Part shown: positions 13,220 through 16,003 of the stretch, piece after piece
Numbering within the stretch: the stretch's first letter is position 1
How the letters are laid out: each line of letters opens with the position of its first letter
Source: Akkermansia sp.
GTDB taxonomy: Bacteria > Verrucomicrobiota > Verrucomicrobiia > Verrucomicrobiales > Akkermansiaceae
Assembly (NCBI GenBank): GCA_017398355.1
Contig: JAFQGD010000067.1
Span: forward strand, 1 to 64,000
Reading direction: 5' to 3'
DNA: 64,000 nt
The notes under the pieces: generated by a model
Told to the model about the DNA's origin: nothing
What the model saw: only the letters and a program-made list of their open reading frames with translations
Databases searched by the model: none
Program-made: the position numbers and the translations under genes

Positions 13220-14023
13220 ATGAAAGATGTGTTCAATCCCTTGGTGTTGTTGGTCATTTTATTGGCCTTGGCAATGCGCGTGACAAACGCGGATTCAGAG
13301 ATGGCTACAACGCTAGATTTGATGATGCTGACACTTTGCGCAGTGTGCGGTATATTGAGTTTGGTACTTGGGGTAGCGCGTATGATGGTGCGGAGGCGGG
13401 CGCTGATGCCGATTGTGTGGGCTGTTGTTTATTTGATTGTGGGCTGCTGTGTGTGGACGATTAGCTTTAAAAAAACGGAACAAGGGGAGGAAAGGGCTTC
13501 TTACCTGGCTCTTACAACGCAGTATCGGGCAGAGGGCAACCCCATGATTCGGAATGAAGAGGGGGATAGCCTCCCTGCGTTGGCGGCGGCATTGGGGGAA
13601 ACCCGTGTGTTGGAAGAGATTTTACAGGTACATGGAGCAGAAATACCTGTGGAGGTAAAAATTGAGGCAGCCTATGCGGCTGCTGCGGCCGGAAAAGTGT
13701 CTGCGTTGGAACTATTGCTGGCAAGCGGTGTACCTGTAGATGCGAGCTACGAGAGCACAACGCTGCTCAATGCTGCAGCCCAGAATGGAATGACGGATGC
13801 TATGCTCACGCTACTCAAGCGAGGAGCTAATGTAAACTTGGCAGACGATGAGGGAACATCCCCGCTGATGAGTGCAGTAATGACAGATCGCCCCACCCCC
13901 GTGCGATTGTTGCTCAAATACGGGGCGGATGCAACGCAGCTGGACAAGAATGGCCGGGATGCAGCCAGCTATGCGCGTAGTGAGGAAGTCTCGGCTCTGC
14001 TGTCTCCCGGCACTCAGCTTTGA
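13220..14023 (+). CDS. Membrane-anchored ankyrin-repeat protein
   Basis: 267 residues. Three hydrophobic segments lie at about residues 6-22, 32-52 and 60-78. After a short linker, ankyrin repeats occupy about residues 110-260, with typical phrases 'VSALELLLASGVPVD', 'TTLLNAAAQNGMTDAMLTLL' and 'VRLLLKYGADATQLDKNGRD'. The repeats probably face the cytoplasm and mediate protein contacts; the partner is unknown. The start at 13220 is supported by one of the few strong Shine-Dalgarno sequences in the window, AAAGGAGG at 13207-13214, five bases upstream. The gene is convergent with, and overlaps by 10 bases, the HAD-FolB fusion gene. Confidence 0.85.
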   Translation: MKDVFNPLVLLVILLALAMRVTNADSEMATTLDLMMLTLCAVCGILSLVLGVARMMVRRRALMPIVWAVVYLIVGCCVWTISFKKTEQGEERASYLALTTQYRAEGNPMIRNEEGDSLPALAAALGETRVLEEILQVHGAEIPVEVKIEAAYAAAAAGKVSALELLLASGVPVDASYESTTLLNAAAQNGMTDAMLTLLKRGANVNLADDEGTSPLMSAVMTDRPTPVRLLLKYGADATQLDKNGRDAASYARSEEVSALLSPGTQL

Positions 14024-14994
14024 GCGGTGGTACAGAATGCGCAGGAAGCAATCTCCGGCAAAATGTACTTGTGAACCTCCACGGTGGCAGTGGTTGCGTG
14101 GAATTCCCGCACGCAGCAGGTAGCCAATTCATCCGCCAGAGTTTCGACCAGATTGTAGGCTTTGCTACCGGCTAGTTCGATTAGTCTGTATGTGAGACGG
14201 GCGTAATCTATTGTACGGCTGATATCCTCTTGCATATCTGCAAAGGGGCAGGCTACTGAAAGGGTGATATTTGCGGTGAGCCGTTGGGGCGCACTACGCT
14301 CTTCCTCCGTAATGCCAATGTGGCAAGATAATTCTAAACGGTGAAGCTTAATAGTTTCTTTCGGTGCGGAGGTGGTGTGCTCCATGAGGCGACGGAGCGC
14401 GCCTAGGTGGGGTATGATGAGGTCCGGCTCTGCCTGAGCCAGTTGCTGCACGTTGTTGTAACCAGTTTGTACGCCAATGGCTGTGATGCCGGCGCAATGC
14501 GCTGCCGTGATATCATGCTGCATATCGCCGATAAAGGCTGTTTCATGGGGAAGTAACCCATGCTGCTTCATGAGCGAGGGGATGTAGTGTTCCTTATTGC
14601 GGATACCGGAATGAATATGCTCAAAAAAGTGCAGCATGTCCATCTCCCGCACCTGTTGGTCAAAAGCCGGCGGATCCATGCTTGTGAGGATGAAGCAGCG
14701 GATGCCCCGCCGGCGGCAAAAATCCAAGAAATCTCTTGCGTGGGGGATGGGCGTTACCTTGAGGGTGGAGTTGTCGAACGATTCGCGGTAGTAATTCTCC
14801 AGCTCTTCCAGTTTGGCTTGAGGGGTTTTCCACGCATAATAGTCCGGATAGGGGAGCTGAAACTCATTGCGGAAACTCTCGCGGTCAAGCGGGGGCAAAT
14901 CGTAGTGGCTGAGCACAAAGTTTGTAGCCTCTATGGTGATTGCCATATCATCGCAGAGCGTGCCGGACCAGTCGAAAATGATGTTGCGGAACAT
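14014..14994 (-). CDS. Fusion of HAD-family phosphatase and dihydroneopterin aldolase (FolB)
   Basis: 326 residues, two enzymes in one chain. Residues 1-205 are a HAD hydrolase of the phosphoglycolate-phosphatase/phosphonatase type. Motif I is 'FDWSGTLCDD' (Ser replaces the usual second Asp), motif II is in 'RCFILTSMD', and motif IV is 'AFIGDMQHDITAA'. Residues about 215-320 are dihydroneopterin aldolase. 'CHIGITEEERSAPQRL', the Tyr in 'TIDYARLTYRL', 'NLVETLADELA' and the Lys in 'VEVHKYILPEIAS' match the FolB active site, which cleaves 7,8-dihydroneopterin to 6-hydroxymethyl-dihydropterin in folate synthesis. The phosphate of dihydroneopterin phosphate must be removed just before this step, so the HAD half may supply it. 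This is the last gene of the nadB operon, 19 bases after the previous gene. Confidence 0.88.
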   Translation of the reverse strand: MFRNIIFDWSGTLCDDMAITIEATNFVLSHYDLPPLDRESFRNEFQLPYPDYYAWKTPQAKLEELENYYRESFDNSTLKVTPIPHARDFLDFCRRRGIRCFILTSMDPPAFDQQVREMDMLHFFEHIHSGIRNKEHYIPSLMKQHGLLPHETAFIGDMQHDITAAHCAGITAIGVQTGYNNVQQLAQAEPDLIIPHLGALRRLMEHTTSAPKETIKLHRLELSCHIGITEEERSAPQRLTANITLSVACPFADMQEDISRTIDYARLTYRLIELAGSKAYNLVETLADELATCCVREFHATTATVEVHKYILPEIASCAFCTTAQS

Positions 14995-15013: not shown

Positions 15014-16003
15014 TTATTTGCGGACGGAGGGGGCAGATCCGTAGCCGGCTTTTGACCCTCGTGTTCTGATGCGGTTTTTCAGTTGGTACTTTTGTACAGC
15101 TTTTTTGAGCGCCGGGTTCAGGAATGGGTTGTCTTTGCCAAACTTGGCCCATGGCCCGCCCGGTACCAAGGAAAAATCAACAAAACGCCAGTGTACCTTT
15201 GCCATGCCCCCCGGAATGCCCAAGTAATCGCGCACGGCGGGTGAAATATCTATGCCTGCTCCGTGATTGGCCTTGTTGCGGGGGCGCGCCCCTCCGAATA
15301 CATATTGCCAATCATCTGTGCAGAAGGGACCACAATCTTCCCATTGGGCAAAGCAATACCGCCCATTGTAGTATATCTGCACCCACATACCGCGGCACAC
15401 GGATTCGTACTTACCTTCTTTATCCCTTCTGTACCAAGGGATGACTTTGGATGCTTCCGGCTTGGATCCGCCTTTCTGGATATCATTGTAGGGGAGCGCA
15501 ATGTAAAAGGGGTTTAGTTGGGGGGTAAATCCCTTGGGAGCGAATGTTTTTGGGTCGCGGTTGGCGGGGTTCGGGTCATCAAATCCGCCGTAATTGTCAT
15601 CCCATGCGCTATCCCAACTACTGGCTGTATTGGGCGTTGGATTCCGTTCTGTCGGGCGTTCTCCTATGTAAAAGTAAGTGGCAGTAATATCATAATGCCA
15701 AGGATAGGCTCCTTTGCGTGGCGGGGTGGGGACTTTCTTAGGGTCAGGAAAATTGCGCCGGTGACTTTGATCTACGTTTGGTCGTATGGGCCCGTTTTTG
15801 ATGGATGCTTTCAACAGGCTGTCATCGCTCATGCTCTTGCGAGTATCGGACGCTACTCGAAGAACGAGCTTTTGCCGAGCAGCGAGAGACCTTTCGATAG
15901 ATTTGCTGGTGGCTCCGGGTACGCTCGCTGCGGCAAGCGGTGTAGTAGTGGAGTATGCAAAAAAGGCAAGAAGGAAGAGTTGACAGACAGTAAGTCGGGG
16001 CAT
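15014..16003 (-). CDS. Secreted protein with possible double-psi beta-barrel-like domain
   Basis: 329 residues. The N-terminal signal peptide ends near 'PLAAASVPG'. After a basic, Pro-rich linker, residues about 155-290 form a compact domain with 'NPFYIALPYND', 'CRGMWVQIYYNGRYCFAQWE', 'DCGPFCTDDWQYVFG' and 'NHGAGIDISPAVRDYLGI'. Paired cysteines plus the 'WEDCGPF...GIDISPA' layout are reminiscent of RlpA/expansin/3D-type barrels, in which a buried Asp acts on peptidoglycan or polysaccharide. I assign that only tentatively. The basic C-terminus is probably disordered. It lies 23 bases after nadB and 19 bases before the HAD-FolB gene. Confidence 0.75.
   Translation of the reverse strand: MPRLTVCQLFLLAFFAYSTTTPLAAASVPGATSKSIERSLAARQKLVLRVASDTRKSMSDDSLLKASIKNGPIRPNVDQSHRRNFPDPKKVPTPPRKGAYPWHYDITATYFYIGERPTERNPTPNTASSWDSAWDDNYGGFDDPNPANRDPKTFAPKGFTPQLNPFYIALPYNDIQKGGSKPEASKVIPWYRRDKEGKYESVCRGMWVQIYYNGRYCFAQWEDCGPFCTDDWQYVFGGARPRNKANHGAGIDISPAVRDYLGIPGGMAKVHWRFVDFSLVPGGPWAKFGKDNPFLNPALKKAVQKYQLKNRIRTRGSKAGYGSAPSVRK

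Follow-up and report, generated by a model that had tools for sequence, protein, structure and literature searches.

The phosphate that must leave the pterin just before the aldolase FolB acts is removed by an enzyme without an assigned gene, an old gap in folate synthesis, a pathway that is targeted by drugs and supplies a vitamin in the gut. One gene in the stretch of Akkermansia sp. DNA analyzed here (the window, 64,000 nucleotides; GenBank assembly GCA_017398355.1, contig JAFQGD010000067.1, positions 1 to 64,000) joins a hydrolase of the HAD type to FolB and raises the question of whether the HAD half catalyzes this step. With a conserved HAD that occurs in fusion with the type of enzyme preceding the gap as well as with the one following it, the problem becomes directly testable.

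The gene lies at positions 14014–14994 of the minus strand (stop codon included), where an ATG start opens a single frame of 326 amino acids with exactly these bounds and no internal stops. That one chain holds both a HAD hydrolase and a complete FolB, as had been read from the letters alone, is borne out by the domain searches, since both halves pass the curated Pfam cut-offs and the FolB residues are kept. The HAD domain (residues 1–207; 14374–14994, minus strand) matches PF13419 (HAD_2) over residues 5–175 with an E value of 1e-23, and the FolB domain (residues 213–326; 14017–14358, minus strand) matches PF02152 over residues 215–312 with an E value of 9.9e-20. The FolB half belongs to the latter family by a wide score (71.6 bits, cut-off 31.8) and exceeds the cut-off of the domain model TIGR00526 (58.6 bits, cut-off 45.05); against the NCBIfam equivalog TIGR00525 it is a near miss (66.1 bits, cut-off 72.15). 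Alignment to solved dihydroneopterin aldolases shows that E232, Y264, E284, and K309, which we take to be the catalytic residues of FolB, are all retained. An AlphaFold2 model of the whole fusion, built from an input alignment of 69 rows, has a mean pLDDT of 95.9; its HAD half resembles the phosphoglycolate phosphatase-like structure PDB 2ah5 (Z 24.7 across 204 residues), with a C1 cap, and its FolB half resembles Yersinia FolB 3r2e (TM 0.90, normalized by target length). What is new is the way in which known domain families are combined; the fusion does not amount to a new kind of system.

Full-length versions of the protein were found in 71 of 76 Akkermansia genomes and in further genera of the family, so the fusion is not an assembly accident, and the outcome that would have refuted the earlier note, a domain order restricted to this strain, did not materialize when relatives were searched. 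The nearest named relative is a metagenome-assembled genome from goat rectum (L172, 94% identical in the HAD domain); Akkermansia glycaniphila carries the fusion as well. The other five Akkermansia genomes (G005, G028, G039, G040, and G064) gave no FolB match whatsoever and lack the HAD too, despite retaining FolK and FolE2, and a DNA search of G005 with the corresponding region of G008 returned short scattered matches only, which fits a clean deletion and a rearrangement equally. Folate prototrophy is doubtful in these genomes, or another aldolase is in use. The HAD would also be of use in calling folate prototrophy in the genus, several genomes of which have neither the fusion nor a recognizable FolB. 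A bypass by PTPS-III was considered as the cause of the loss and rejected: the PTPS read from genomes with and without the fusion have a Cys before the HGH motif, the exception being one second copy in G048, a genome that carries the fusion.

The genome of the window contains FolE2, FolK, and FolP, and its single FolB match is the fusion protein. GTP cyclohydrolase IA, the usual type of FolE, had no match in 29 genomes including this one, and FolE2 was present in 28. The sole PTPS of the genome carries the Cys motif and is QueD-like, so the genome shows none of the known ways around FolB; with FolE2 present, dihydroneopterin triphosphate (DHNTP) should be made and must lose three phosphates before reaching FolB.

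The gene arrangement in relatives suggests how these phosphates may be removed. Other genera of this family have the HAD fused instead to a NUDIX domain (about 140 residues), with folB following directly and often overlapping the fused gene; Luteolibacter and Haloferula have such HAD-NUDIX proteins. Among the 80 best-matching named loci, which come mostly from one family and are not 80 independent cases, the HAD is fused to FolB in 33, fused to NUDIX with folB behind in 36, and next to a separate folB in 6, while 5 have the HAD-NUDIX fusion with no folB detected. Over the class, HAD-NUDIX fusions occur in six families (f1, f2, f8, f14, f16, and f18), and these plus f11 and f17 make eight of the nine families seen in which the HAD is linked to folB; in f14, some 500 bases separate the end of the NUDIX domain from folB behind it, and f4, where the HAD is located away from folB, is the sole exception. 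The genes on the outside of the pair vary by lineage: 55 of 100 loci have DciA and a ferredoxin, the part of the genus to which the window belongs has NadB and a 329-residue protein, f4 and f8 have a LOG protein and homocysteine methyltransferase, and others occur elsewhere. The linkage of HAD and folB is therefore not passive synteny. The 329-residue protein itself (window positions 15014–16003, minus strand) had no Pfam or NCBIfam match, and its relatives adjoin the fusion in 26 of 80 named Akkermansiaceae loci, nearly always together with NadB.

The NUDIX partner looks active, judging from a regular NUDIX box in 49 HAD-NUDIX sequences that had been chosen by a strict NUDIX-box pattern. Its score against the NudB model PRK09438 is weak (30.7 bits, cut-off 103). 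No NUDIX gene is linked to the fusion in Akkermansia, and none of the NUDIX proteins in the genome of the window is a convincing orthologue of the fused domain; they look RppH-, MutT-, or NudE-like, with scores below the cut-offs. One open reading frame of this genome (contig C4, L101:1471–2610, plus strand; 379 residues) carries, C-terminal to an RppH-like NUDIX, a region resembling PPK2 that scores 46 bits and does not reach the family cut-off.

NUDIX hydrolases (FolQ, NudB) are the known enzyme type for the conversion of DHNTP to 7,8-dihydroneopterin monophosphate (DHNMP) (PMC1971073, PMC5389931), and the removal of the remaining phosphate has been attributed to a nonspecific phosphatase with no assigned gene (PMC1971073). 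Since FolB acts on dihydroneopterin, a HAD joined to either of the two would stand exactly between them. We consider it likely, with a probability of roughly three in four, that the HAD domain joined to FolB is a phosphatase dedicated to DHNMP; this candidate role, already put forward in the earlier note, has gained from the NUDIX fusions in six families and the folB linkage in eight of nine. FolE2 would make DHNTP, from which a NUDIX enzyme, unlinked to the fusion in Akkermansia and fused to the HAD in relatives, would strip pyrophosphate to give DHNMP. The HAD domain would then take the phosphate onto Asp8 and release it by hydrolysis, the acids of motif IV binding Mg, and the FolB domain would convert the resulting dihydroneopterin to 6-hydroxymethyl-7,8-dihydropterin and glycolaldehyde. 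The substrates of the HAD and NUDIX domains, and any channeling between domains, are inferred. Our literature search found no paper on a HAD-FolB fusion or a gene for DHNMP phosphatase, although most subscription journals were outside its reach.

The catalytic residues of the HAD half fit this role except at one position. Fold, nucleophile, Thr/Ser, Lys, and acidic pair place the domain in HAD subfamily I with a C1 cap. In an alignment of 26 sequences from across the class, motif I (D8-W9-S10; 14965–14973, minus strand) is an invariant DWSGT with Asp8 as the nucleophile, the Lys of motif III (K134; 14593–14595, minus strand) is invariant, and so are the metal-binding acids of motif IV (D157 and D161 in GDMxHD; 14512–14526, minus strand); motif II was assigned to T104 (14683–14685, minus strand) by alignment and position. 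The acid/base Asp expected two residues after the nucleophile is absent, with S10 in every one of the 26 aligned sequences. Four more distant HADs of the phylum have Asn at this position (DWNGT, DFNGT), so the change in motif I is old and shared and not a defect of the gene in the window. Hydrolysis of alkyl phosphate monoesters normally needs the acid/base Asp, and its replacement is a real puzzle for the phosphatase reading. The Ser in place of Asp had been noticed from the letters and likened to phosphonatase-like enzymes; the observation stands and extends to the whole clade, but a DxS motif does not make this HAD phosphonatase-like. Phosphonatase (PhnX) was discarded because the models TIGR01422 (22.9 bits, cut-off 220) and TIGR03351 (25.3 bits, cut-off 218.9) are far from being reached and the fold is of the phosphoglycolate phosphatase-like HAD type. 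The equivalog models for phosphoglycolate phosphatase itself give 71.6 bits at best, with a cut-off of 225.

With no sequence retaining the acid/base Asp, the HAD domain could be catalytically dead, its role for FolB being structural or regulatory. We regard this as very improbable, because the whole class keeps D8, K134, D157, and D161 without exception, the domain is under strong purifying selection, and HADs with Thr or Ala at the position of Ser10, such as P-type ATPases and phosphonatase, are active elsewhere. The dN to the nearest relative is 0.03 in the HAD half and 0.14 in the FolB half (dS is above 1), so that the HAD half is the more constrained of the two and no decaying passenger.

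Two further explanations keep the HAD active but give it other work, and both appear unlikely to us, though less so than a dead domain. The HAD could be a broad-substrate clean-up phosphatase that became joined to FolB and NUDIX by chance, with no specific role in folate synthesis. HAD phosphatases are often promiscuous, some genomes with FolB have no HAD, and f4 keeps the two apart. Within the family of the window, G130 and G151 (loci L153 and L152) retain FolB and are missing the HAD or HAD-NUDIX gene, G130 being 82% complete, which suggests that the HAD can probably be replaced by another phosphatase; at L152, FolB comes straight after the DciA region. These genomes and the separation in f4 also weigh against a dedicated DHNMP phosphatase, as do the weak NudB score and the lack of a linked NUDIX in Akkermansia. 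Chance joining is, however, hard to reconcile with repeated linkage and fusion to two neighboring folate activities in eight families, and the 24 invariant HAD columns in the class-wide alignment, several of them in the cap region (N25, F41, F45, L47, P48, and Y53), point to one shared substrate. The order of the reactions could also be reversed, with the FolB of this lineage cleaving DHNMP itself and the HAD dephosphorylating the released glycolaldehyde phosphate. This would fit the same gene linkage and the fold, which is nearest to phosphoglycolate phosphatases, whose substrate resembles glycolaldehyde phosphate; but FolB enzymes act on unphosphorylated pterin, and the HAD falls far below every phosphoglycolate phosphatase cut-off, as given above. 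A further point in favor of this order is that a DHN-monophosphate aldolase exists in another family, the PTPS paralogue PF1278 of Pyrococcus, which is so annotated in one database (PMC5041015).

To trace the history of the fusions, 91 HAD domains were placed in a quickly built tree rooted on f4, in which several branches are long. The HAD-NUDIX sequences branch near its base, and the HAD-FolB label requires at least four changes on it, two of them forced by the starred branches. One fused group (L041, L219, and L244) is nested among HAD-NUDIX sequences, beside others with separate HAD and folB. Together with the label changes, this indicates that the HAD-FolB fusion probably arose more than once. 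The simplest reading is that NUDIX was lost and HAD and FolB then joined, repeatedly, the exact number being uncertain on a quick tree. In the same tree, four loci from metagenome-assembled genomes titled Akkermansia muciniphila (L203, L208, L211, and L243), which have the HAD-NUDIX form or separate HAD and folB, group outside Akkermansia, so their species labels look wrong.

We also lean, with less confidence than for the assignment to DHNMP, toward a wider proposal, in which the clade of HADs with DWSGT would be the first dedicated family of DHNMP phosphatases. Together with NUDIX and FolB it would make up a three-step module in Verrucomicrobiota that turns DHNTP into 6-hydroxymethyldihydropterin and that fusion would have rebuilt several times, and the HAD active site would work without the usual acid/base Asp.

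The closest known system is the canonical pterin branch, where a NUDIX of the FolQ/NudB type, a nonspecific phosphatase, and FolB perform the same three consecutive reactions as those implied here, FolB being the last. No gene is assigned to the phosphatase there (PMC1971073), whereas here a HAD shares one chain with FolB or with NUDIX. Fusions of early enzymes of this branch are known from a related phylum, as FolQ and FolB of Parachlamydia UWE25 are marked as fused proteins in Table 2 of PMC1971073, although this table mentions no HAD and does not name the fusion partners. Bifidobacterium longum has a FolB-FolK fusion (PMC1971073) in which FolB is likewise joined to a neighboring step, but the partner is the step after FolB and here it is the step before. 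As for the HAD itself, phosphoglycolate phosphatase-like HADs (PF13419; PDB 2ah5, 2hsz, and 2nyv) share with it the fold, the cap, and most catalytic motifs, and it differs from them in the Ser at motif I +2, in its own invariant cap residues, and in scores far below the equivalog cut-offs. Another N-terminal partner of FolB was found in two genomes of f4 (probably Methylacidiphilum), where a FolB with an N-terminal cpYpsA SLOG domain is encoded at L156:2773–3684 (minus strand; Pfam match), and the same fusion is present at L159:2673–3584 (minus strand; read by eye).
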